Origin: Halalkaliarchaeum desulfuricum
Lineage (GTDB): Archaea > Halobacteriota > Halobacteria > Halobacteriales > Haloferacaceae
Assembly: GCF_002952775.1 (NCBI RefSeq)
Contig: NZ_CP025066.1
Location: 2,046,001-2,110,000 of the forward strand
Length of the DNA: 64,000 bases
Direction: 5' to 3'
Below are positions 36,224 to 49,635 of this stretch, piece by piece; position 1 is the first letter of the stretch, and every line of letters starts with the position of its first letter. The notes beneath the pieces are model-generated. The model made no database searches, was not told the origin of the DNA, and worked only from the letters and a program-made list of their open reading frames with translations. A program made the translations under genes and the position numbers.

Positions 36224-36850
36224 ATGAGCGATCAGTCGCCCGAGGACCACCACGACCACGATCATCACGATCACGACCATCACGATCACGATCACGACCA
36301 TCACGATCACGATCACGACCATCACGACCACGATCACGATCATCACGACCACGATCATCACGATCACGACATCGAAACGGCCGCAGTCGCCATTTTGACC
36401 GTGTCCTCGTCGCGAACGATCGACGAGGATCCCTCGGGCGAGTACATCGCCTCGGCGTTCGAGGAGGCAGGCCACGAGGTTGCGATCCGGGAACTCGTCC
36501 CCGACGACTTCGACGACGTCCAGTCGGCGGTCGACCGGCTCGCTTCACGGGAGGACACCGACGCTGTCGTCACAACCGGCGGCACGGGGATCACGCCCGA
36601 CGACGTGACGCCCGAAGCGGTCGAACGGCTGTTCGACAAGCGACTCCCCGGCTTCGGCGAACTGTTCCGTCAGCTCTCCTACGAGGAGATCGGCACCCGC
36701 TCGATCGGCTCCCGGGCCGTCGCGGGCGTCGACGACGGCACGCCGATCTTCTGTCTGCCGGGGTCGGAAAACGCGGTGCGGCTCGGGATCGAAGAGATCA
36801 TCATCCCCGAAGTCGGCCACCTCGCTGGGCTCGCCGCCCGCGAGGAGTGA
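36224..36850 (+). CDS. MoaB/MogA-like molybdenum cofactor protein with a poly-His/Asp N-terminus
   Basis: Residues ~50-208 form a MoaB/MogA domain, which adenylylates molybdopterin before metal insertion: SSRTIDEDPSGEYI near 60-73, VVTTGGTGITPDDVTPEA near 115-132 and FCLPGSENAVRLGIEEII near 180. Residues 9-49 are almost only His and Asp (about 24 His in groups of one or two), a potential high-capacity divalent-metal-binding tail. The DNA there is itself repetitive. A tttata sequence lies only about 13 bp before the ATG, too near for a leaderless start there. Metal storage, delivery or sensing by the tail is inference. Confidence 0.88.
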   Translation: MSDQSPEDHHDHDHHDHDHHDHDHDHHDHDHDHHDHDHDHHDHDHHDHDIETAAVAILTVSSSRTIDEDPSGEYIASAFEEAGHEVAIRELVPDDFDDVQSAVDRLASREDTDAVVTTGGTGITPDDVTPEAVERLFDKRLPGFGELFRQLSYEEIGTRSIGSRAVAGVDDGTPIFCLPGSENAVRLGIEEIIIPEVGHLAGLAAREE

Positions 36851-39227: not shown

Positions 39228-39422
39228 TCACAACAGCGCGAGTAGAGTGCCGACCCCGAGCGAGAAAAAGAGTATATATAAGAGCCCGACGAGTACGTTT
39301 CGCTTGCTCGCACCGGGATAAAATCCAGGTAGAGCGTACAGGGCCGTGTGTTGGAACCGCCGATTTCGGGGGCGTCGCCTGGGCTGGGTCTCCTCTTTCG
39401 AACGCCTACTCGGCGCTGTCAT
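39228..39422 (-). CDS. Small membrane protein at the end of the SipW-type cluster
   Basis: A possible 64-residue protein: a basic N-terminus followed by HTALYALPGFYPGASKRNVL and a hydrophobic helix VGLLYILFFSLGVGTLLALL. The hydrophobic half is clearly non-random compared with antisense noise. The best ATG (39422) overlaps the acidic protein gene by 17 bp, so translation may be coupled. Two other ATGs lie a few codons upstream. Function unknown; it may be the last gene of the eight-gene cluster. Confidence 0.45.
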   Translation of the reverse strand: MTAPSRRSKEETQPRRRPRNRRFQHTALYALPGFYPGASKRNVLVGLLYILFFSLGVGTLLALL

Positions 39423-40095
39423 CACCATCGCCAATTTCGTCGTCCTCGGTGTCTGTCTCCGCATCATCGCCGTCGTCCGTCGTTTCCTCGGAGCTATCGT
39501 CCGTCGTTTCCTCGGAGCTGTCGGTCTCACCCTCGTCGGCGCTGCTGTTCGTTTCGTCGGGCGCTATTTCGCTCTCTGCATCCTCGTCGGATCCGTCGTC
39601 TGAGGTCGAATCTTCCGTTCCGTCGGATCCGTCTTCGATTTCGCCGCCGTCACCGTCTTCGCTCTCATCTGCATCGGCGTCGCCGTCGGCACTGGCGTCG
39701 CTGTCGACTTGACCGTCACTGTCGCCGTCTTCTGCAGTCTGCGGTTCCGAGTCGGCGTCGTCGGAGTCGGTGTTCTCGGTGTCACCGGCCGGCGTTGGAT
39801 CGTCGGTCTCTGGTTCCGTGTCGTCGGGCTCAGTTGGGCCGGATACTTCAGGAGCACTCGCTTCCGTGGCTGGGGCATCCGATCCGGTGTCGTTTCCGGG
39901 AGCACCGCTCCCGTTGCCGACTGTTTCGTTCGTCGTGGTCGTCTCGAACGTCTCGAACGTTTCGTTCGTCGAGAACGTTCCCTCTACCGTCTCCTGTGCG
40001 TTGAAGAACGCGGCCGTGTAGAATCCGCCGCTCGCGGCGACCGCGAACACCAGACCGACCACGGCCACGATCGACAACAGTTTTCTAATTGTCAT
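39406..40095 (-). CDS. Secreted, extremely acidic low-complexity protein
   Basis: A 229-residue protein with a signal-like helix (RKLLSIVAVVGLVFAVAASGG) followed by FYTAAFFNAQETVEGTF, which resembles the post-signal segment of SipW-processed proteins (AYFSDEESFEGNT in its neighbours). From about residue 50 it is almost wholly Asp, Glu, Ser, Thr and Gly with several NxT/NxS sites (NET, NGS, NDT), consistent with a disordered, glycosylated cell-surface or matrix component. Its ATG overlaps the signal-peptidase stop by 11 bp. No folded domain seen. Confidence 0.75.
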   Translation of the reverse strand: MTIRKLLSIVAVVGLVFAVAASGGFYTAAFFNAQETVEGTFSTNETFETFETTTTNETVGNGSGAPGNDTGSDAPATEASAPEVSGPTEPDDTEPETDDPTPAGDTENTDSDDADSEPQTAEDGDSDGQVDSDASADGDADADESEDGDGGEIEDGSDGTEDSTSDDGSDEDAESEIAPDETNSSADEGETDSSEETTDDSSEETTDDGDDAETDTEDDEIGDGDDSAE

Positions 40096-41128
40096 CGTTT
40101 ACCACCTCCCCGTCAACTGCGGAACTGTCCGCGACGGGCTCCTCCGCATTTATGCCCGGAACCCACTCGGATTCCGGACCGTCATCGCTCACTGTTGTGC
40201 CACCGTCGAATCCGACCGCGAGGATCGGATCAGATGGTTCGTCGCCGTCGACCGCTTCAGTAGACGCGGCTTCGGATTCGGACGCGGCGTTCGCGTTGCT
40301 GGGAATCCAGGCGGGCAACAAGGTCGCCGTGACCCCCAGGAGTGTCATCCCCGAAGCGATAGCGACGGTTACCGACAGCGTCGTCTGCCAGCTGTACGCG
40401 ACGTAGGCGCTGTACGGTGTAAACACCACCAGCGCGAGGAACGCCCCTTCGAACGTTCGCAGCGTCATGACGAACGGGGCGTTCGCGGCCGGGGTCGCCA
40501 CGTCCTCGGATTGTGCGTTTGCTGTCCCGACGTCTGCAGTTTCGTCGTCGCCGTCTCCTTTCGTGTCGTCGGAATCCGTCTCCGCTGCGAGTTCGTCGTC
40601 CACTTTCGAGAAGGACGCGTTCGACGCCCTGCTCCGGCGGTAGAACGTATAGGCCTCGTTCAGCGCGAGCAGCCCGAACGGCACGACGATCAGAGCGATG
40701 AAGCCGTACTGGGAGTTGGCGAACTGGATCACGTACCCGATGTATGGAATCGTCACGAACACGACGCCCAGGACGTTCTCGGCCGGGACGAGTCCGGCGT
40801 CGGGTGCCTCGTTGGCGTCGCCCATGGTTTCGAAGGCGATTCCGTCCCCGGATTCGACTACGCCGATCACCCGATGTGTCACCGGCACTTCGCTGTTGCC
40901 GCGCAGGAAGGTGATCACATCACCCTCCTGGATGGTGGCCGGATCCCGATCGGCGACGATCACCGCGTCGCCCGGCGCAATCGCCGGCGTCATGCTCGCG
41001 GTCAACACCACGAAGCTGTGGTCGGCGCCGACCGCCTGGGGCACCGCGTACACGACGAACGGCGCCACGACTGCGAGCAACAGGAGCACGCCGAGGACGC
41101 TTGCGACCCGCCGGACTGTCACGTTCAT
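40085..41128 (-). CDS. Signal peptidase I of the SipW / ER type
   Basis: A 347-residue membrane protease expected to cleave the leader of the neighbouring surface proteins. After a first helix (RVASVLGVLLLLAVVAPFVVYAV), the Ser motif is VVLTASMTPAIAPGD (~44-58) and the His motif VTHRVIGV (~88-95), followed by MGDANEAPDAG (~105). The catalytic base is His rather than Lys, as in SipW and archaeal/ER enzymes. At least two further helix groups and long acidic tails (~180-210 and the C-terminus) extend it beyond a usual ~200-residue SipW. ATG at 41128 overlaps the upstream gene by 4 bp. Confidence 0.88.
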   Translation of the reverse strand: MNVTVRRVASVLGVLLLLAVVAPFVVYAVPQAVGADHSFVVLTASMTPAIAPGDAVIVADRDPATIQEGDVITFLRGNSEVPVTHRVIGVVESGDGIAFETMGDANEAPDAGLVPAENVLGVVFVTIPYIGYVIQFANSQYGFIALIVVPFGLLALNEAYTFYRRSRASNASFSKVDDELAAETDSDDTKGDGDDETADVGTANAQSEDVATPAANAPFVMTLRTFEGAFLALVVFTPYSAYVAYSWQTTLSVTVAIASGMTLLGVTATLLPAWIPSNANAASESEAASTEAVDGDEPSDPILAVGFDGGTTVSDDGPESEWVPGINAEEPVADSSAVDGEVVNDDN

Positions 41129-42558
41129 GCCCCACCTCCGCAAAACGGGAAGCCGAACGGATCGTGCGCGGCCAGGACCTCGAAGTCGTGGCCGGCGTCG
41201 TCGTCAGTGTCCTCCGGATCGTCGCTACCGACGACTGTCAGTGGTCCGGGGTCACACCGGACCTCGAGTTCCCGTTCGCCGCCGTCGACGACGAGGTACA
41301 GCGTGCTTTCGAACGCGGACCCGCTGGTCGAGCTTCCCTCCCGGCTGCTGGCCTCGAGGAAGAACTCGTCGCCCTGGGAGAGCTGTCCGTCGAACAGCAG
41401 TCCCTGGAGTCCGCTTTCGGGGCCCTGACCACCCTGCTTGCGGTAGTAGGCCCGGACGTCGCGAGCCTCGGCGCCGTTATCCTCGCCGGTGTACCGGACC
41501 AGCAGTCCACCGACGTTGCTGCCGTCGGTACAGTCGACACACTCCAGATCGTGACACAGGGGCACACCGTCGGCGTTCCTCGCGCCGACGAGGCGGAAAT
41601 CACCGACCCGGATTCCGGGGGCGATCGGATCAGAGCAGCTCGTGTGGAGCTGAGCGTTCTTCTTGCCGTCGACGTAGAACGCGGCTTCGGGCTGGCCGGA
41701 CATGGGTAGCGGAACGGTGAACATCCCACCAGGGGGCAGCTCGACCGATTCGGAGCCGTCCGTCGGGTACAGCTGTTCGACCGCCTCGACGTTGCCACTC
41801 GGGACGTACACTGCCACGTCGGCCGTCGTCGGTCCGACGTATTCCATGGTACTCTCCGAGAGCCTGCTCGTGCAGGGTTCACACACGTCCGGGCACGGGG
41901 CCCGGTCGGCGAATGGGTTCACCGCGCCCTCCTCGGGCACGTGTCGGCACTGGTCGGCGTGCAGCTCGAACGTGAGGTCCGACGTTTCGCCTGCAAGCGA
42001 TTCCGTGTCCTCGTAGGGGAAGAACCACCGGAGCACGAGCTCTATCGCCCTGCGGTCCGACGGGTCCAGACACCCCTCGCCGATCCGGAGCCCGTCGTGG
42101 AGTTCCCGCTTCAGTTGCGAGAGCGTCCACGTCCCCCGCTCGGGGATCTGTGAGACGCCGTTCCAGTTCCGCGGCTGAATCCACACCCTGAGGGCCTCCC
42201 CGAGGGGATCGTACGACGGCGGACAGTCGGTCGCGAGCCACAGCCTGGCGGGGTTCTCCTCTGCCCGGAGGCTGATGGACACCGATCCGCTGTCTCCCGG
42301 TTCGATCCCGTCGAAGCCGAAGGACAACTCGCCGTCCGGAGAGACCGAACAGTAGTTTTCCTCGCAGTCGAGTTCGACCCCGATGCCGACGCCGCCGGTT
42401 TCCAGCGTCCCCGAGACGCGCTGCCCCTCGTTGAGCAACGCGTGGGTTCCCGCGCCCGTGAACGCCCCGGCGACGCCGATCGCCCCGACGCTGGCGAGGA
42501 TCTGCCGCCGGCTCAGTCCGGCGAGGCGTCCGGTGTCCGTCCGACGCTCGTCGGTCAT
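41125..42558 (-). CDS. SipW-type secreted surface protein with C-terminal domain
   Basis: A 477-residue exported protein. Its N-terminus has a twin-arginine motif and hydrophobic helix (LSRRQILASVGAIGVAGAF), then a GTLETGGVGI segment like the GNTLTAGEL element of its neighbours. The first half follows the family scaffold (IEPGDSGSVSISLRAEENPARLWL, in part) and closes with ELHADQCRHVPEEGAVNPF near residue 222. The second half (~240-477) is a separate beta-rich domain with several Cys (CEPC, CHDLECVDC) and an FPFCGGG end. Overlaps both neighbours by 4 bp (ATGA), so it is strictly co-translated with the signal peptidase. Confidence 0.78.
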   Translation of the reverse strand: MTDERRTDTGRLAGLSRRQILASVGAIGVAGAFTGAGTHALLNEGQRVSGTLETGGVGIGVELDCEENYCSVSPDGELSFGFDGIEPGDSGSVSISLRAEENPARLWLATDCPPSYDPLGEALRVWIQPRNWNGVSQIPERGTWTLSQLKRELHDGLRIGEGCLDPSDRRAIELVLRWFFPYEDTESLAGETSDLTFELHADQCRHVPEEGAVNPFADRAPCPDVCEPCTSRLSESTMEYVGPTTADVAVYVPSGNVEAVEQLYPTDGSESVELPPGGMFTVPLPMSGQPEAAFYVDGKKNAQLHTSCSDPIAPGIRVGDFRLVGARNADGVPLCHDLECVDCTDGSNVGGLLVRYTGEDNGAEARDVRAYYRKQGGQGPESGLQGLLFDGQLSQGDEFFLEASSREGSSTSGSAFESTLYLVVDGGERELEVRCDPGPLTVVGSDDPEDTDDDAGHDFEVLAAHDPFGFPFCGGGA

Positions 42559-43421
42559 GCCGTCACCTCGGTTTCGCCGTCGACGGCGAACGGATTGGTC
42601 GGGTCGTCGGCGGCGACGGCCCGGAACTCGATGTCGAACGCGACCGACGTGCCCTGGAGGTCGTTGACGTTCTCGAGGATCGTCGGGAACGCCCACGCCA
42701 GGGCCAGACAGAGCCGGTCGCCCTCTTCGAGCACGCTGTTGTCCAAGACGCCGGGGTTCAGCTCGATCCCCTCGAAAACGGAGCCGTCGACACCGCCGAC
42801 GGTCGGCATCTCACCCAGGACGCCTTCGGCGATCGGTTCGCCGAAGGAACTCTCTTCTGCCCCCTGACAGCCGAACAGCCCGAAGATCCCCGTGTCGTAC
42901 CACAGTTCGGTTTCGATGGCGTTCGCCAGGGGGTTCTCCGCGAGCGGGGGACAGTCTTCTTCGCTGCCCTCTGTCGTCCCGCAAGACGGCGAGATCCGGA
43001 GCCAGACCCGTGCGTCGGCCTCCTCCGCCAGGAGTCCGATGCTCGCCGTACCGGAGTCACCCGGGAGGACGTTGTTCACCTGGATTGCGGGACCGTCGAC
43101 GTCGGCCACGTAGCCGTCGACGTTCTCGTAGTCCCATTCCTCGGTGGAGCCGTTCGTCGCGAGCGGGGCTCCAGTGAGGAGGTGGCCGTTGTACGTGCTG
43201 TACCAGGACACCCGGATCCGGGGCCCGACGTCGTTGCTGATAGTACTCGAGTCATCGACTTCGACGTTGGCGCCGTCCGGCTGGGCGTAGGTGTAGTGTG
43301 TATACGTCCGGCGCCGGTTCGCAGTGCGGAGCTGGCCGTAGCCGATCCCGGCGACTCCGAGCCCGCCGATGCCTGCGAGAAGCGTTCGGCGGTTCAGTTC
43401 GGTTTTCGATTGATTCGTCAT
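42555..43421 (-). CDS. SipW-type secreted surface protein (short member)
   Basis: A 288-residue member of the cluster family. The leader TELNRRTLLAGIGGLGVAGIG has a twin-arginine pair. The scaffold shows NNVLPGDSGTASIGLLAEEADARVWL (in part) near 110 and ends FRAVAADDPTNPFAVDG, a diverged form of the shared terminal motif. The RR-containing leader fixes the start at ATG 43421; an in-frame start at 43541 would bury the signal behind 40 residues. A GGGGGA-type Shine-Dalgarno-like run lies about 10 bp upstream. It is 253 bp downstream of the next cluster gene. Confidence 0.76.
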   Translation of the reverse strand: MTNQSKTELNRRTLLAGIGGLGVAGIGYGQLRTANRRRTYTHYTYAQPDGANVEVDDSSTISNDVGPRIRVSWYSTYNGHLLTGAPLATNGSTEEWDYENVDGYVADVDGPAIQVNNVLPGDSGTASIGLLAEEADARVWLRISPSCGTTEGSEEDCPPLAENPLANAIETELWYDTGIFGLFGCQGAEESSFGEPIAEGVLGEMPTVGGVDGSVFEGIELNPGVLDNSVLEEGDRLCLALAWAFPTILENVNDLQGTSVAFDIEFRAVAADDPTNPFAVDGETEVTA

Positions 43422-43503
43422 TTGGTGTATCCCCCCGACGATTTCGGCCCGATGGGCCGGAGCAGTCGGTCGCTTTCTGACCCGTCTCCCGCGAGCGAGT
43501 GCA

Positions 43504-43526
43504 TATGAGTCGCGTACCGTCGCGCG
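43504..43526. promoter_or_regulatory. 23-bp element, copy 1 (upstream of 43421 gene)
   Basis: Begins tatgagtcgcgtaccgt and ends gcgcg; 22 of 23 bases match a second copy at 45181-45203. It lies about 83 bp before the ATG of the 43421 gene. Because copy 2 directly abuts a TATA box, this is best read as a promoter-proximal regulator site. Confidence 0.6.
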
Positions 43527-43576
43527 TGTGACTGGTGTCACACGTCGCGGACGGAGTCCGCGAGCCCAGGTCCACC

Positions 43577-43593
43577 GACGGAGTCGAACCGTC
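43577..43593 (-). other. T-arm-like hairpin, copy 1
   Basis: On the minus strand it reads GACGGTTCGACTCCGTC: a 5-bp stem closed by G-C over the 7-base loop TTCGACT, the consensus of a tRNA T-arm. Copies 2 and 3 have GC where this one has AU at stem pair two, a compensatory change. It lies between two surface-protein genes, 81 bp past the stop of one and 156 bp before the start of the next. Confidence 0.65.
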
Positions 43594-43673
43594 GCAAGGC
43601 GCCGGCGTGGATTGGTTTCTGTTCGTCCGAGAGTTATCGACGGAGGTGCGATCCTCCGTGATTGGATGTTAGC

Positions 43674-45023
43674 TTACTGTTGTGTGCTCTCGTTTCCCAT
43701 CTCCGCGAAGGGGTTCACGGGGTCGGGGTTGTGGCGGCACTGTTCGGTGTAGAACGACAGATCGAACGATACCGAATCGCCCTGTACCTCGTTGCCGACA
43801 CTGGTCGGGAGGCACCACTCGAAGCCGATGAACCGGGTGTTCGACGGTTCGAAGCAGAGCCCACCGTTCTCCTCGATCGGGACGCCGTTTCCATCTTCCA
43901 CGTCACAGTAGAAGAACCGGAAGTTGCTGATCCCGTATGGTTCCCCTCCCGGTGAGAGCGTCGTTGCGACAGTACCTTCCGTCTCACAGGCGTACACGGT
44001 CGCGAGTCCCTCGCCGTCGGCGATCCCGTCGGGTCCTCCCTTCAGGGTCACCTGGCAGATGGGTTCGTTGCTGGACCACGAGAAGCCGGTCGGCTCGTCA
44101 CCCTTGTAAGACACCTCGTCGATGGTGATTACGATTGTTTTGTCGTCGACGACGTAGGTAAACTCGTCTCCTGCCGTGAGGTTGTCGATGACGTTCTCAT
44201 CATCCTCTTTGGTCAGCGCAATGCACTCTCCCTCTGTGTCGTCGTCAGATCCGTTTTCCTCGTCCGGTACCTCGAATACGACCGGGTCGTACTGGAGCAG
44301 GAGCCCTTCGTTGAGTTCGTCGAGCACTTCACGTAGCGTACCGGCAGCGATCTGCGGTTCGTCTTCCTGGAAGACGTTGTCGCCGTCGTCGTACCACGCA
44401 CGGGCGATGATGTTGTCAGCGAGTTCTGCGCCGTCGCTTTCCGGGTGATCGCCGTCTTCTTCACCGGTCAAGTCGCCGTGGAGCCAGATGTAGCCCGGAT
44501 TGTCACACAGTTTGGTGCCGAAAGTGATCTCACCACAGTCGCCCGGCTTGACGTCGTCGAGTTCGATGAGGCTGTCCTCGTTCGGATCGAAGGATGGCTC
44601 ATCGAACGTTGCGATCTCGTCGCAGGCGAATTCGAGGTTCCGTCCTTCTTTCGCTGCCTCTTCGTGATCGTCGTAGTCGTCGAGGTCGACGTACATGTCG
44701 ACACCGCCGTCCCGTTCGAACGACTGGAGGCCGTTCCCATCGTGATCCGGGTACGCGTTGACGAAGGGCCGCATCGCCGAGCCGTAATCTTCCGACCGGC
44801 TCGACTGCGGGCCGCCGTAGTAGAGTTGCTGCCAGGTGACGCTCAGTTCGAGCTGCCCAGCAGTGAGGGTGTTCCCCTCGAAGGACTCCTCGTCACTGAA
44901 GTATGCCGTCGTCCCGAATCCCGCGCCCGCGCTCGCGACACCGACCATGCCGAGGCCAGCGAGCACTTTGCGGCGGGAGATCCCCATCGCGTTCGTTTCG
45001 AAGTTGTTCGATTCGTTTGTCAT
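43674..45023 (-). CDS. SipW-type secreted surface protein with internal beta domain
   Basis: A 449-residue exported protein. Leader GISRRKVLAGLGMVGVASAG then TTAYFSDEESFEGNTLTAGQLEL: a twin-arginine motif and the SipW-substrate element. Scaffold strands LDDVKPGDCGEITFGTKLCDNPGYIWL and AAGTLREVLDELNEGLLLQY flank an inserted beta-rich region (~290-395) containing YVVDDKTIVITIDEV and Cys pairs. The scaffold resumes with GFEWCLPTSVGNEVQGDS and closes with YTEQCRHNPDPVNPF. It has its own promoter with a palindromic TATA and a ~120-base leader holding hairpin copy 2. Confidence 0.85.
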   Translation of the reverse strand: MTNESNNFETNAMGISRRKVLAGLGMVGVASAGAGFGTTAYFSDEESFEGNTLTAGQLELSVTWQQLYYGGPQSSRSEDYGSAMRPFVNAYPDHDGNGLQSFERDGGVDMYVDLDDYDDHEEAAKEGRNLEFACDEIATFDEPSFDPNEDSLIELDDVKPGDCGEITFGTKLCDNPGYIWLHGDLTGEEDGDHPESDGAELADNIIARAWYDDGDNVFQEDEPQIAAGTLREVLDELNEGLLLQYDPVVFEVPDEENGSDDDTEGECIALTKEDDENVIDNLTAGDEFTYVVDDKTIVITIDEVSYKGDEPTGFSWSSNEPICQVTLKGGPDGIADGEGLATVYACETEGTVATTLSPGGEPYGISNFRFFYCDVEDGNGVPIEENGGLCFEPSNTRFIGFEWCLPTSVGNEVQGDSVSFDLSFYTEQCRHNPDPVNPFAEMGNESTQQ

Positions 45024-45067
45024 GATGTTCTTCCCTCGTGGAGGGGTCCTCCCGGGGGATTCCCACC

Positions 45068-45084
45068 GGCGGAGTCGAACCGCC
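45068..45084 (-). other. T-arm-like hairpin, copy 2
   Basis: Minus strand GGCGGTTCGACTCCGCC, perfect 5-bp stem with TTCGACT loop, 45 bp upstream of the ATG at 45023 and inside the predicted mRNA leader. Together with its 3' flank (GGTGGGA and a C-run) it matches copy 3 at 28 of 30 positions. Confidence 0.7.
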
Positions 45085-45161
45085 GTTCCGCGGAAGTGCC
45101 GCGGTTCGAGTCCGTCGCGATCGACGGGCTCGGTGCCGACGTGGGTGGTCGCCTGTAGATA

Positions 45162-45175
45162 CCCCTTATAAGGGG
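45162..45175 (-). promoter_or_regulatory. Perfectly palindromic TATA box of the 45023 gene
   Basis: CCCCTTATAAGGGG is a 14-bp perfect palindrome whose core is a canonical TATA. With initiation about 26 bp downstream, the transcript would start near 45142 and carry a ~120-base leader, unlike the leaderless genes elsewhere in the window. The 23-bp element abuts it upstream. Confidence 0.72.
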
Positions 45176-45180
45176 ATATG

Positions 45181-45203
45181 TATGAGTCGCGTACCGTTGC
45201 GCG
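45181..45203. promoter_or_regulatory. 23-bp element, copy 2 (upstream of the palindromic TATA)
   Basis: Second copy of the element at 43504-43526, one mismatch. It sits 5 bp upstream of the palindromic TATA box, where an archaeal activator or the BRE-contacting TFB acts. Confidence 0.65.
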
Positions 45204-45328
45204 CCTCGCCGTCAGGGTGTTGCTACCGTGCTTTTCGGGGGTCGTGTCCGGAGGTCTCAAACGCCCGTTCCGGCCGTTTTGGGGCGGTATGGTGTGCCTG
45301 CCGCCCGAATTTCTCTCCTGTATCGTGA

Positions 45329-47143
45329 TCAGGCGAACGGATTCTGTGGATCGTCGTTGTGGCGGCACTGTTCGGCGTAGAAGTCGATGTCGAACATCAC
45401 GGAGTCCGTCTGGACTTCGTTGCCGACGTCGGTCGGCAGCCACCACTCGAAGCCGACACACCGGGTGAGCAACGGCGGGAAGCAGTCCTGCCCCTCCGTG
45501 AACTGATTGGAATCGAGTGCGTAACCTTCCTCCAGGACAGCCAGTACTTCCCGGAGTGAACCCTCCGCGATCACCTTTTCGCCGAAGACGACCTGGGCGA
45601 TCTGAGCGAAGATAGCGACAAGATCGACGTCCGCCGGCGATTCGAAGAACAGCTTGTTGCCGTCGTCTCCGTCTCCGGGGGAGGCGATCTCCACAAGTGT
45701 CGTCCGTGCGAGACCGGTCTGTCCAACTTCCTCGAGACCGAAGCCGATGGTGATGATGAGGTAGTCGGTTTCGTCTTTGATCTCGTCGGCCACCGATATC
45801 GTATCGTCGGCAGCACCGTTTCCGCCGACGTCGGCCATCGCATCGAGCTTGTCATCACGAACCCACCCTTGCCACTCGCCGTAGCTCGGGAATCCACTCT
45901 CGGTACTACCGTCGACCTGTTCGGACTCGTAGGACCAGGTCGGTGCGCCGTCTCCGAGGAGGATAATCACGGGACGCCTGTCGGGCGTTCCCTGGGTGTC
46001 GAGCATGTGTCGGCCACCGTAGAGCCCGGCGCCGATGTTCGTCCCGGAGATACCGAACGGCGCGTCCGGCGGGTCGTCCTGTCCGACTTCGTACGATTCC
46101 AGATCTTCCAAGTCGTCCACGATAGCAGCGACGTCGGACGCCTCGGTGAGTCCGAACTCCTCCTCGTCGATCCCGCCGAACGTCACAACGCCGAGACGGT
46201 CGTCGAGACCGCTGCCACCGACGTCCTCGCGGAGATTGTTCGCGAGTGCGATCGCCGCTTTTCTGGCCTCGGCGATCCGGGATCCTTCACCCTGGCCGAT
46301 AACGTTGTCCGGGTTGCCGATTTCGTAGGTCATCGAGCCGGAAACGTCGATGACGAGCGAGATGTCGACCGGCTCGCCGTCCCCGCCCTCGTCGAAGATG
46401 TTGTTGCAGTTGTCGTCGTACCAGACCCGCGCCTCGATGGCGTCGGCGAGCTGGCCGCCCCAGTCGCCGTCGACGTTGTAGTAAAGTGCGTCCTCGTCCT
46501 CCGCCCACGCGGCGAAGTCCTCGGGGTCGTCGTTAGTGGTTTCCTCGTATCCGAGTTCGTCGAGCGTCGCCTGTTCCGGGTCGTTGACACCGTTGTTGGC
46601 GTTTTCCCGGAGGCCGCCACCCATCCACATGTACGCCGGGTTGTCGAAGAGGTGGAAGCTGATCGTTGCTTCGCCGTAGTCGCCGGGTTTGACGTCTTCG
46701 AGCTTGAAAAGCGGGAAGCCGGCGTCGGTGAGTTCCTCGCGCTCGAATCCCGAAATCTCGCCGTTCTCGCCGACACCGACGTTGGCTGCCTCGACCCAGT
46801 CGTTGGGTTCGGGGTAGTCCGGACGGCGGGGTACCTGATCGAGAACGTAGTTTCCGGAGCCCTCCGGGAACTCTTTCACCTGAACCTCTGGATTGTAGTT
46901 CGGGTCATCGTCGTACAGCGCCTGCAGTTCTTCGAGACGGCCCGGACCTCCGTTGTAGGTGATCCGGTAGTCCATCAGAAGGTCCAACTCGCCAGCAGTC
47001 AACGTGTTCCCCTCGAAGCTCTCCTCGTCGCTGAAGTACGCGGTCGTTCCCAGGCCCGCCCCGGCGGAGGCCACGCCGACCATGCCGAGGCCGGCGAGCA
47101 CCTTGCGGCGCGAGAGTCCGAATGATTGGTTGTCGTTCGTCAT
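45329..47143 (-). CDS. SipW-type secreted surface protein with inserted von Willebrand A domain
   Basis: A 604-residue exported protein. Leader LSRRKVLAGLGMVGVASAG and AYFSDEESFEGNTLTAGEL are nearly identical to the 45023 gene. Scaffold: LEDVKPGDYGEATISFHLFD (~165) and ARVWYDDNCNNIFDEGG (~235). A vWA domain then occupies ~255-515 with a full MIDAS: IDVSGSM (~265), the Thr in GISGTNIGAG and ILLGDGAPT. The scaffold resumes at EGSLREVLAVLEEGYALD (~520), then FEWWLPTDVGNEVQTDS, and the protein ends with EQCRHNDDPQNPFA. The vWA suggests metal-dependent ligand binding at the surface. Separated by 110 bp from the upstream cluster gene, with hairpin copy 3 between. Confidence 0.88.
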   Translation of the reverse strand: MTNDNQSFGLSRRKVLAGLGMVGVASAGAGLGTTAYFSDEESFEGNTLTAGELDLLMDYRITYNGGPGRLEELQALYDDDPNYNPEVQVKEFPEGSGNYVLDQVPRRPDYPEPNDWVEAANVGVGENGEISGFEREELTDAGFPLFKLEDVKPGDYGEATISFHLFDNPAYMWMGGGLRENANNGVNDPEQATLDELGYEETTNDDPEDFAAWAEDEDALYYNVDGDWGGQLADAIEARVWYDDNCNNIFDEGGDGEPVDISLVIDVSGSMTYEIGNPDNVIGQGEGSRIAEARKAAIALANNLREDVGGSGLDDRLGVVTFGGIDEEEFGLTEASDVAAIVDDLEDLESYEVGQDDPPDAPFGISGTNIGAGLYGGRHMLDTQGTPDRRPVIILLGDGAPTWSYESEQVDGSTESGFPSYGEWQGWVRDDKLDAMADVGGNGAADDTISVADEIKDETDYLIITIGFGLEEVGQTGLARTTLVEIASPGDGDDGNKLFFESPADVDLVAIFAQIAQVVFGEKVIAEGSLREVLAVLEEGYALDSNQFTEGQDCFPPLLTRCVGFEWWLPTDVGNEVQTDSVMFDIDFYAEQCRHNDDPQNPFA

Positions 47144-47172
47144 GATTGTCTCCCCATCCGGGGAATCCCACC

Positions 47173-47189
47173 GGCGGCGTCGAACCGCC
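47173..47189 (-). other. T-arm-like hairpin, copy 3
   Basis: Minus strand GGCGGTTCGACGCCGCC: same 5-bp stem as copy 2, loop TTCGACG. It is 30 bp upstream of the ATG at 47143, within the 110-bp gap after the 47254-48609 gene. The flank GGTGGGATTCCCC is shared with copy 2. Confidence 0.7.
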
Positions 47190-47253
47190 TCGTCGGCCAC
47201 CCCCGATGGGGTCCGAAAGGGATGAGCGGGATCGCCGCTCGTCGGTTGATTTC

Positions 47254-48609
47254 TCAGACGTCGACGCGGAAGCCGATGTCTTCGCGACCTGGTGTCGCGT
47301 TCCAGGACATTGTCACCATTCCGGAGACGACGTCGCCTTCCTGCAGCGTCGCGCCTTCGATCATCAGGTAGTTCGTCGTGGCACTACCGGACGCGGAGAC
47401 GGAGTCGGCACCCGTTGGGCTCGATCCGTTCAGCATAACGTCCTCGACGGTGATGCTGGCGTCTGCGTCGCGGGTCTTGACTGTCACCCCGATGCCATCT
47501 GCGACTGGGAGCGGTGCGTCATCGACCAATACCTCAGTACCATCGACGTTCCACTTCGCGTCACCGCCGTCGATGGTGAGCGAGAACGGAACCGCCTGGC
47601 CGTTTTGCCACGCGTAGTTCTCGTCGCCGGAGTGGATCGGAAGGTCGTCGGGATCTCGGATATCGAGTTCGCGGTTCGCGGCGCCGCCGCCGTCACCGTA
47701 GATACCGCGGGCGTGCCAGCTGGGCTCTTCGAGTTCCTCTTCGGCCTTGCCCCAGCCTTCACCCTCGCGAGTGACGACACAGGGGTTCGTCAGGCCATCG
47801 TTGTGGCGTTCCTGTTCGGCGTAGAACGAGAAGTCGAACTCTACAGAGTCCGTCTGGATCTCGTTGCCGACAGTTGTGGGGACCTCCCACTCGAAGCAGA
47901 CGCAGGTCTGAGCGGTGTTGGGTTCGTCCTCGACGAACGGGGTGTCGACACCCTCGAATGCGGGTCGGTTCGCCACGGGGGCGTCCGGGTTGCCATCGCC
48001 GTACAGCGGAACGCCCGCCTGCAGCGCCGCCATGACCTCTGCGAGCGACCCGGAGACGATCTCCTCGTTGGTCTCGCCTTCGGTGCAGTAGGACAACGTG
48101 ACCTCCATCGCGTCCGCAAGTTGTCCATCGTCGGGAATCTCGCCGAACAGTTCCTCCAGTGCGGCTTCCTCTGGTTCGGTCGTTCCGTTTTGATCGTTCG
48201 CTGTCAGCTCCCCGCACATCCACATGTAGGCTGGGTTGTCGACGATGGAGAAGCAGAACTCTCCCTCACCGGAGTCGCCAGGTTTGAGGTCGACGACTTG
48301 GATGCTGAGCGGCTCGCCTTCCTCGAGCGAGATCCCAGTCTCTTCATCAGAGACGCTCTCACCGATTACCCCGCCCTGCACGTACGTCCCTGCCGGGGTG
48401 GACCACTGTGCGAACGAGCCCTGATCTTCAGAGTAGTCAACATGGACATACAGGTCCAGTTCACCCGCGGTGAGGCTGTTGCCGACGAAGCTCTCCTCGT
48501 CGCTGAAATACGCCGTCATTCCGAGTCCCGCGCCCGCGGAGGCCACTCCGACTGCGCCAAGACCGACCAGTACTTTTCGCCGCGAAAGTCCGAATTCTTT
48601 GTCTGCCAT
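47254..48609 (-). CDS. SipW-type secreted surface protein with C-terminal beta domain
   Basis: A 451-residue exported protein, first gene of the minus-strand cluster. Leader LSRRKVLVGLGAVGVASAG and AYFSDEESFVGNSLTAGEL. Scaffold elements VVDLKPGDSGEGEFCFSIVD (~110), NPAYMWMCGEL, GSLAEVMAALQAGVPLY (~195), CFEWEVPTTVGNEIQTDS (~240) and YAEQERHNDGLTNP (~265) match its paralogues, but here NPC replaces NPF. A second beta-rich domain (~285-451, including PFSLTIDGGDAKWNVDG and a final DIGFRVDV) follows. A GGGGAGA Shine-Dalgarno-like run precedes the ATG at 48609. The predicted leader is ~80 bases. Confidence 0.84.
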   Translation of the reverse strand: MADKEFGLSRRKVLVGLGAVGVASAGAGLGMTAYFSDEESFVGNSLTAGELDLYVHVDYSEDQGSFAQWSTPAGTYVQGGVIGESVSDEETGISLEEGEPLSIQVVDLKPGDSGEGEFCFSIVDNPAYMWMCGELTANDQNGTTEPEEAALEELFGEIPDDGQLADAMEVTLSYCTEGETNEEIVSGSLAEVMAALQAGVPLYGDGNPDAPVANRPAFEGVDTPFVEDEPNTAQTCVCFEWEVPTTVGNEIQTDSVEFDFSFYAEQERHNDGLTNPCVVTREGEGWGKAEEELEEPSWHARGIYGDGGGAANRELDIRDPDDLPIHSGDENYAWQNGQAVPFSLTIDGGDAKWNVDGTEVLVDDAPLPVADGIGVTVKTRDADASITVEDVMLNGSSPTGADSVSASGSATTNYLMIEGATLQEGDVVSGMVTMSWNATPGREDIGFRVDV

Positions 48610-48709
48610 GTGTTTTTCTCCCCGGTACATTGCCACCTGGTGGCCCTGTGCCGGTACGACCGATACTGGCCCTCCTATGGGGATAGTTACGAGCAGCCAC
48701 GTCACCGGC

Positions 48710-48718
48710 TAATAATAG
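48710..48718 (-). promoter_or_regulatory. Probable TATA box of the surface-protein operon
   Basis: Minus strand ctattatta, about 100 bp upstream of the ATG at 48609, which would give a leader of roughly 75-80 bases. It lies about 70 bp from the first of the phased CCTAC boxes. Confidence 0.5.
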
Positions 48719-48783
48719 GCCAGAATCGTCTAAGAGCCCGATAGACCCGTCTACGAAGTGCTTAGACACCCCGGCTGGAGGTC

Positions 48784-48852
48784 CCTACCACACGGATGGG
48801 ACACCCTACCGTCCGAATCGGAAGACCTACCAACCGGTCCGACGTTCCTACT
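48784..48852. promoter_or_regulatory. Four CCTAC boxes at exact 21-bp spacing
   Basis: CCTACC at 48784, 48805 and 48826 and CCTACT at 48847 start exactly 21 bp apart, i.e. two helical turns, so all face one side of the DNA. The first three 21-bp units also share weaker CCGG/CGGA and GG positions. They lie in the 435-bp divergent region between the surface-protein operon and the 49045 regulator gene. The rest of this gap shows no gene. Confidence 0.65.
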
Positions 48853-49044
48853 TTCAACACCCACAACCGTGAATAATTCGTTTGGACGGGATTCGACCTC
48901 GGAATCCGAACTGCGAGCTCTTCGCCCACGGGAAACAATGTGATGGCGTATTCATGCCGTATCGGCTTTCTACTGCCTGAATTCGGCGTATTGGCTTATT
49001 GTGTCGGATCAGTGGGCGTCCCGAAACCTTCCGGTAGTCGGTCC

Positions 49045-49635
49045 ATGTATATCCCCTCGTCCGACGAACTACCCTCCAGAACACCGGCGGCCTCCGGTGG
49101 TGAGATTTCAATGCAGCTACGCACAACAGACATTCCGGAAAGCCAGATCCACACGATCCTCTCGAATCCCCGACGCACGCGGGCGTTGCGCCACCTGTAT
49201 CTCGCGGGCGGGACGATCACGGTCAACGAACTCTCACATTTGATTGCCGAACACGAGACCGGAGAGTCGCCACCGCCGAAGAACGTCAGGGAGAGTGTCT
49301 ACATCTCCCTCCACCAGACTCACCTCCCGAAGCTACACGATCTCGGCGTGGTCGAATACGACCGGGAGACGAAGCAGATCAAATTGAAACAGAAGGCTCG
49401 CGACGTCGATCTGTACATGGAGGTGGTCACCCGGCACGGGATCACCTGGTCGGAGTTCTATCAGGGGCTCGGGATCCTCTCGTTGCTTGCGATCCTCGCG
49501 AGTCTGCTTTCCGTCCCCGGGATCTCCGCGATCGACCCACTCCTGCTCACGAGCGGGTTCCTGGCGCTTTTCGCCGTCGTGACGCTGTACCAGCTGTGGA
49601 CCAACCGGTGGTTCTACCTCTCGACGTCCGGCTGA
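49045..49635 (+). CDS. DUF7344-like winged-helix regulator with membrane helices
   Basis: A ~196-residue protein. An N-terminal winged helix (~25-115) is recognisable from LSNPRRTRALRHLYLAGGTI and TVNELSHLIAEHE, then HQTHLPKLHDLGVVEYDRET, the typical HTH-to-wing turn of haloarchaeal DUF7344 proteins. Two hydrophobic helices follow (LSLLAILASLLSVPGI and LLTSGFLALFAVVTLYQL), so it appears membrane-tethered. The ATG at 49045 gives MYIPSSDE; a second ATG at 49111 (MQLRTTDIPES) is equally plausible. Divergent orientation across the phased boxes makes it the likely regulator of the surface-protein operon. Confidence 0.78.
   Translation: MYIPSSDELPSRTPAASGGEISMQLRTTDIPESQIHTILSNPRRTRALRHLYLAGGTITVNELSHLIAEHETGESPPPKNVRESVYISLHQTHLPKLHDLGVVEYDRETKQIKLKQKARDVDLYMEVVTRHGITWSEFYQGLGILSLLAILASLLSVPGISAIDPLLLTSGFLALFAVVTLYQLWTNRWFYLSTSG

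Follow-up and report, generated by a model that had tools for sequence, protein, structure and literature searches.

A candidate SipW/TasA-type surface-fibre locus of haloarchaea with tRNA-like RNA elements before its internal genes

Genes of the locus and their recurrence in haloarchaea

The DNA analysed here (the window) is a stretch of 64,000 nucleotides from Halalkaliarchaeum desulfuricum (contig NZ_CP025066.1, positions 2,046,001 to 2,110,000). It holds eight minus-strand genes, P1 to P5, sipW, P7 and P8, and beside them a divergent gene for a membrane-tethered winged helix-turn-helix (wHTH) regulator (Table 1); reading of the open reading frames (ORFs) confirmed all nine genes that a first-pass annotation had listed. 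P4 and P5 overlap by 4 bp, as do P5 and sipW; the overlap of sipW and P7 is 11 bp and the start codon of P8 lies within the 3′ end of P7. The annotation had proposed a surface-fibre role, and we consider it quite probable that the locus is dedicated to surface fibres of the TasA/camelysin/archaeal-bundling-pilus type. The annotation lacked the twin-arginine (Tat) feature of the leaders, the VWA domain of P2, the TapA-like role proposed here for P7, the conservation across genera and a set of tRNA-like RNA elements, all of which are described below.

Some gene descriptions needed refinement. The five secreted paralogues (P1–P5) all have Tat leaders and are TasA-like, but the canonical SipW-type leader is confined to P1–P3; it is degenerate in P5, and P4 has no SipW motif. 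The acidic secreted protein (P7) is present and also bears a SipW-type cleavage motif. Taken alone, the ORF of the small membrane protein (P8) is weak, yet similar ORFs come just after P7 in three or more other loci.

Table 1. Genes and RNA elements of the locus (positions in the window).
Feature	Position	Strand	Evidence
P1, SipW-leader (Tat) TasA-like subunit, C-terminal choice-of-anchor W domain; first gene of the operon	47254..48609	-	NF041928 E 1.8e-24; TIGR04088 16.2 bits (cut-off 19); PF12389 20.5 bits
P2, SipW-leader TasA-like subunit, inserted VWA domain (metal-ion-dependent adhesion site DVSGS), likely adhesive	45329..47143	-	TIGR04088 29.4 bits; PF13519 8e-8
P3, SipW-leader TasA-like subunit, inserted beta domain (~208-345 of the mature chain)	43674..45023	-	TIGR04088 27.1 bits; AlphaFold model mb380fcee949a, Z 8.7 against 8AUR
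P4, TasA-like minor subunit, Tat leader, conserved N-terminal strand YTxYTYAQTD	42555..43421	-	hhalign to P3 family 99.7%; AlphaFold model m6ac96e905d27, Z 8.7 against 8AUR
P5, TasA-like minor subunit, C-terminal DUF7467-like segment	41125..42558	-	hhalign to P3 family 99.8%, E 1e-27; PF24269 26.7 bits (cut-off 27, just missed)
SipW/ER-type (Ser-His) signal peptidase, C-terminal membrane/acidic extension	40085..41128	-	TIGR02228 107.7 bits; NF046067 (SipW) 106.8 bits; S45, H85, D104 and D110 invariant
P7, Sec-type leader with SipW cleavage motif, one donor-strand-like segment, disordered D/E-rich tail; proposed TapA-like role	39406..40095	-	directly 3′ of sipW in 33/33 loci
P8, small basic/membrane ORF of 64 aa, overlaps the end of P7	39228..39422	-	similar ORFs just 3′ of P7 in three other loci
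Divergent winged-helix regulator (DUF7344), two C-terminal membrane segments	49111..49635	+	PF24035 92.8 bits; divergent position conserved
T-arm/acceptor RNA element before P2	47165..47212	-	covariance model R1 24.5 bits; CGGTTCGACGCCG
T-arm/acceptor RNA element before P3, four-way cloverleaf fold	45062..45145	-	R1 36.4 bits; minimum free energy cloverleaf, z -3.4
T-arm/acceptor RNA element before P4	43569..43613	-	R1 55.5 bits

An order-level search of 195 haloarchaeal genomes found homologues of P3 in 64 and matches to a P4 profile in 59. Reading of the neighbourhoods gave 33 full loci, this locus and a further copy in H. desulfuricum included, with a common order: divergent wHTH gene, two to seven subunits with SipW-type leaders, P4, P5, sipW and P7. 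In a few loci an overlapping ORF masks P4; the P4-profile search recovers a P4-type match in most such genomes. This recurrent gene order exceeds chance. The second operon of H. desulfuricum (~2.807–2.820 Mb) is diverged and has its own sipW and wHTH genes, and four more loci show a reduced form in which one P3-like gene adjoins sipW and wHTH genes. In a phylum-wide profile search full-length relatives were confined to the order, with the leader or a partial core as the only matches beyond it. A metagenome contig of Candidatus Kaiserbacteria (L006, 10001–11998) has genes for proteins of weak similarity, one of which bears a SipW-like leader motif. Literature searches of open-licence papers returned no description of haloarchaeal SipW/TasA loci, and the novelty of the system is hence provisional.

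Between the start of the operon and the divergent wHTH gene lies TCGTAACTA (window ~48680, minus strand). It is a candidate operator and recurs at this place in ten other loci; still other loci carry GATTAGCTATGGGG in its place.

Subunit fold, leaders and signal peptidase

All 63 P1–P3-type subunits collected across the loci match TIGR04088, 54 match the camelysin family PF12389 (counted at E ≤ 0.01, best 9.9e-8) and 23 contain a VWA domain. By profile comparison (Table 1), P4 and P5 are homologues of the P3 family. When the P3, P4 and P5 profiles were compared with the sequences of solved structures, TasA was not matched and PDB entry 9P0A was the only match (E 0.07). AlphaFold models of two of the paralogues, mature P3 and P4, were compared with known structures by Foldseek and VIA-align. 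The P3 model has a mean predicted local distance difference test (pLDDT) score of 76, with residues 1–15 below 50. Against the PDB, Foldseek ranks the TasA fibre 8AUR first for this model (probability 1.00, E 2.5e-3), and VIA-align likewise places 8AUR at the top (Z 8.7, root mean square deviation 3.9 over 157 aligned residues), followed by the TasA monomer 5OF2 (Z 6.8) and by 7UEG (Z 6.0), the Pyrobaculum calidifontis archaeal bundling pilus, a TasA-like donor-strand filament. For the P4 model (mean pLDDT 75.5) 8AUR is top in both programs, with Z 8.7 while the next match reaches 6.1, and 7UEG scores 5.4. The mature proteins are thus not predicted to be unrelated enzymes. We find the modelled TasA-like fold of P3 and P4 convincing because two diverged paralogues give the same answer, in accord with the leader and the peptidase.

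Leaders were gathered with the pattern G(T/A)xA[YF][FL][SN]D. Twin arginines, which form no part of that pattern, occur in all 67 of them, and for this reason export of folded subunits through Tat is likely. With the predicted cut at A^[YF][FL], P2′ is aromatic or leucine, as the search pattern itself dictates; in the TasA case an aromatic P2′ impedes cleavage by bacterial LepB (PMC10269814).

The first-pass annotation had described a SipW/ER-type (endoplasmic reticulum-type) signal peptidase with visible Ser and His motifs. Both residues, Ser45 and His85, are invariant in an alignment of 20 S26 peptidases, Bacillus subtilis SipW among them, as are Asp104 and Asp110. The archaeal and the Bacillus SipW models give the window enzyme nearly equal scores (Table 1). 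H. desulfuricum encodes three S26 peptidases elsewhere, plus the SipW of the second operon (~2.8177 Mb), which a search with PF10502 by itself misses. In a tree, the operon-linked enzymes separate from the general ones with support of 91/95, on long branches. Within this genome, proteins above the cut-off of the SipW-leader model TIGR04088 are encoded in the two operons only. Because of this restriction, and because the other S26 peptidases fall outside the operon-linked group, the peptidase does not appear to be the cell's general one and SipW is most likely dedicated to the fibre operon.

In all 33 loci a P7-type gene directly follows sipW and overlaps its end. The leader of these proteins is hydrophobic, usually without twin arginines (28/33), and is mostly followed by a SipW-like motif, one short strand (e.g. 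LAVFSDEVTVQGNF) and a long tail of low hydrophobicity; beyond residue 50 of the window P7 only ~3% of residues are hydrophobic. B. subtilis TapA has an N-terminus resembling that of TasA (AFHDI/AFNDI) and donates its N-terminal strand to TasA, and the two genes tapA and sipW overlap at the stop codon of the former and the start of the latter (PMC10151520). P7 shares with TapA the SipW-type leader, the subunit-like N-terminus and the gene overlap with sipW. A Pfam scan found no domain in the window P7, and a folded Ig-like domain of the TapA type was not detected. As TapA's folded domain is missing, P7 is not classed as a TapA; by analogy it is most likely a strand donor, TapA-like in position and role.

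tRNA-like RNA elements before internal cistrons

The window has three copies of CGGTTCGACNCCG (0.13 expected), one each before P2, P3 and P4. Across loci the consensus reads CCCACnCnGG-(variable)-GGCGG-TTCGACT-CCGCC-GGTGGG-(hairpin CCCC..GGGG)-start codon. In geometry, the 5-bp stem with its 7-nt TTCGANN loop matches a tRNA T-arm, while the pairing of CCCAC and GTGGG resembles an acceptor stem. Among 29 aligned elements 95.7% of the cells are paired, both sides have changed in 9 of the 12 pairs, and the covariation score is 0.404, compared with 0.169 for shuffled and at most 0.139 for slid alignments. The alignment was partly selected by acceptor and T-stem complementarity, which biases the pairing counts; the two outermost acceptor pairs are free of this selection. 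Because of this bias the T-stem test was repeated with no pairing criterion, on upstream regions of subunit genes that needed only GGTTC[GA]ANNCC. The outer T-stem pairs were all formed in 50 of 55 regions, with a mean of 27.9 and a maximum of 37 in 2000 shuffles. For the acceptor stem, a wide search of 100 nt against shuffled upstream regions is a weak test (61/69 observed, 48% by chance).

The elements lie on the coding strand, and in 53 of the 56 cases assigned to a leader-bearing gene their 3′ end is 19–31 nt before the start codon. A GC hairpin follows the element in 63 of 72 cases, compared with 29.5% at random sites. Only 2 of 35 first genes are preceded by an element, one of these being a census artefact. 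No Rfam family scored above its gathering score in a scan of the locus, and ARAGORN finds no tRNA gene in the window. The 17-bp repeat ACGGTACGCGACTCATA occurs exactly at 43504–43520 and 45181–45197 (both minus strand), upstream of P4 and P3 (0.02 expected).

Covariance model R1, built solely from fibre-operon elements, was searched against the 3.3-Mb genome. Besides the two fibre operons it matched two further sites at E 3e-4 (908143 and 2924841). Both are the 23S–5S spacers of the two rRNA operons, with the match ending 1–2 nt before the 5S 5′ end; lower matches include tRNA genes at E ~1 or worse. In Haloferax volcanii the 5′ end of 5S rRNA is made by tRNase Z, which acts there on a tRNA-like structure (PMC3296008, citing Hoelzle 2008). 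Since R1 also picks out these pre-5S leaders, the site of a known tRNase Z cut, we infer by analogy that the fibre mRNA is probably cut at the elements by tRNase Z.

The elements are not restricted to fibre operons. In other genomes one precedes a close homologue of the 9P0A pilin (E 2.4e-10), others stand before DUF1102-type proteins and one sipW gene, and some genes for Tat-leader proteins start 4 nt after the element. In all, 12 loci carry the T-arm element before other genes for secreted or surface proteins, the 9P0A-type pilin among them.

Proposed mechanism, alternatives and comparison with known systems

The TasA-like fold of P3 and P4, the SipW-type leaders and the dedicated SipW together support a surface-fibre role, and the locus is best regarded as a new haloarchaeal variant of the TasA/archaeal-bundling-pilus type, one that has several subunits and probably uses Tat. 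In the mechanism that we propose, P1–P5 would be exported folded by Tat and held in the membrane through the uncleaved leader, which would hold back the donor strand until SipW cuts. The operon's SipW would cut after the alanine ahead of the aromatic segment (A^YFSDEESFEGN), and the N-terminal strand so released, disordered in the P3 model, could insert into the next jelly-roll subunit by donor-strand exchange. P7 would be produced alongside SipW and exported by Sec; with a donor strand that carries only a disordered acidic tail, it might start or cap the fibre like TapA. Since their inserted or appended domains differ (anchor-W, VWA, beta), P1, P2 and P3 may act as backbone, adhesive and display subunits, with P4 and P5 as obligatory minor subunits. 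On the mRNA, tRNase Z would cut at the elements before P2, P3 and P4, giving each cistron a new hairpin-guarded 5′ end, and this separation would set the subunit ratios.

Several observations weigh against this scheme. On the protein side, PF12389 scores on the window proteins (20.5, 15.6 and 20.8 bits) are below the curated cut-off of 22.5; a VIA-align Z of 8.7 is moderate and the Foldseek E-values are modest; the Z of 6.0 between P3 and 7UEG is close to that of unrelated beta-sandwiches, the next match being an unrelated enzyme (5.6); and P4 combines a Tat leader with the lack of a SipW-type cleavage motif. On the RNA side, the P2 element reaches only 24.5 bits, elements at the R1 threshold precede only 53 of 95 internal subunit genes, and some overlap the preceding gene. 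The minimum free energy fold of the P4 element is not tRNA-like (z -0.7); as folding is likewise indecisive for the pre-5S control (z +0.7), the case for RNA structure rests on covariation. The 17-bp repeat represents possible internal promoters or operators, and if it marks promoters, the P3 and P4 elements could sit in 5′ leaders and not in read-through mRNA.

TasA-like proteins need not form fibres, and P1–P5 could be separate, monomeric S-layer-associated surface proteins that share a leader type and a peptidase. The large inserted domains (VWA in 23/63), the several differing paralogues per operon and the choice-of-anchor W domain of P1 would suit such display. We nevertheless think this unlikely: among known structures, TasA in its fibre form comes closest; the N-terminus that cleavage would free lacks order in the model of the monomer, as expected of a donor strand; and P4, P5, SipW and the strand-only P7 are kept in every full locus, which suits assembly better than independent display.

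A stronger, if still doubtful, competitor concerns the RNA elements, which may be structured 5′ leaders that control translation, e.g. by occlusion of the ribosome site through the CCCC/GGGG hairpin, or whose T-loop serves as a binding site for a protein. The T-loop is a motif of RNA in general, and this explanation would account for the tight distance of 19–31 nt to the start codon and for the hairpin in 63/72 cases, and would fit internal promoters, should the 17-bp repeat before P3 and P4 mark any. It sits less well with the match of the same covariance model to the 23S–5S spacer just before 5S, the tRNase Z site of H. volcanii, or with the loci in which the start codon follows the element by 4 nt, a spacing that suits a new, nearly leaderless 5′ end. 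That the elements are functionless dispersed repeats, mobile or tRNA-derived (remnants of tRNA genes or integration sites), we regard as very improbable; their T-arm sequence is indeed tRNA-like and true tRNAs score weakly with R1, but they occur in many genera with compensatory changes in both helices, and with strict position and strand before internal cistrons and almost never before first genes.

A more far-reaching reading joins both parts. The tRNA mimics in the fibre-operon mRNAs would be tRNase Z sites that share the pre-5S signal, separate the cistrons and set their ratios, and that also mark at least one other pilin-type family (9P0A-like), and the fibres would be built from Tat-exported, prefolded TasA-like subunits whose strand is freed by a dedicated SipW. 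We assign it a probability of roughly 0.55. If true, haloarchaea own a TasA-type matrix or pilus system for which the one SipW per operon is a genetic handle; donor-strand subunits are exported prefolded; and tRNA processing machinery serves, in a rare archaeal case, as a routine mRNA cutter, with the pre-5S signal as a ready control. Of the two parts, the RNA elements surprise more, and they can be tested directly in tractable haloarchaea.

Elsewhere in the window (36224–36850, plus strand) lies an ORF with a long N-terminal His-Asp repeat (DHDHHDHDH...) followed by an apparent MogA/MoaB-type domain; its product is possibly metal-binding.

Among known systems, the bundling pili of P. calidifontis (7UEG), here compared by fold alone, are likewise an archaeal TasA-like donor-strand filament; the present system is haloarchaeal and multi-subunit. 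The 9P0A pilin also has a twin-arginine leader, followed by GTGAFSS, and the same RNA element precedes its close homologue elsewhere, but it is a smaller and different protein whose similarity is at leader level and only to the P5 family. The B. subtilis tapA-sipW-tasA operon shares the SipW-type leaders, the adjoining Ser-His SipW, the TasA jelly-roll and a partner with a subunit-like N-terminus. The haloarchaeal loci differ from it in their twin-arginine leaders, their 2–7 TasA-like paralogues with VWA, anchor or beta inserts, the extra conserved minor subunits P4 and P5, the membrane wHTH protein and the tRNA-like elements; unlike TapA, P7 consists of a strand and a disordered tail with no folded domain. 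In Bacillus cereus, the sipW-tasA/calY-capP system has two SipW-processed TasA-like subunits and an assembly modulator, CapP (PMC13082335), and resembles the present one in having several SipW-processed matrix proteins; VWA subunits, Tat leaders and RNA elements are not mentioned in the available part of that source. The haloarchaeal pre-5S tRNase Z signal has the same acceptor-like stem, GG and T-arm with a TTCGANN loop and is found by the same covariance model, whereas the elements described here precede protein-coding cistrons and often carry extra variable arms.

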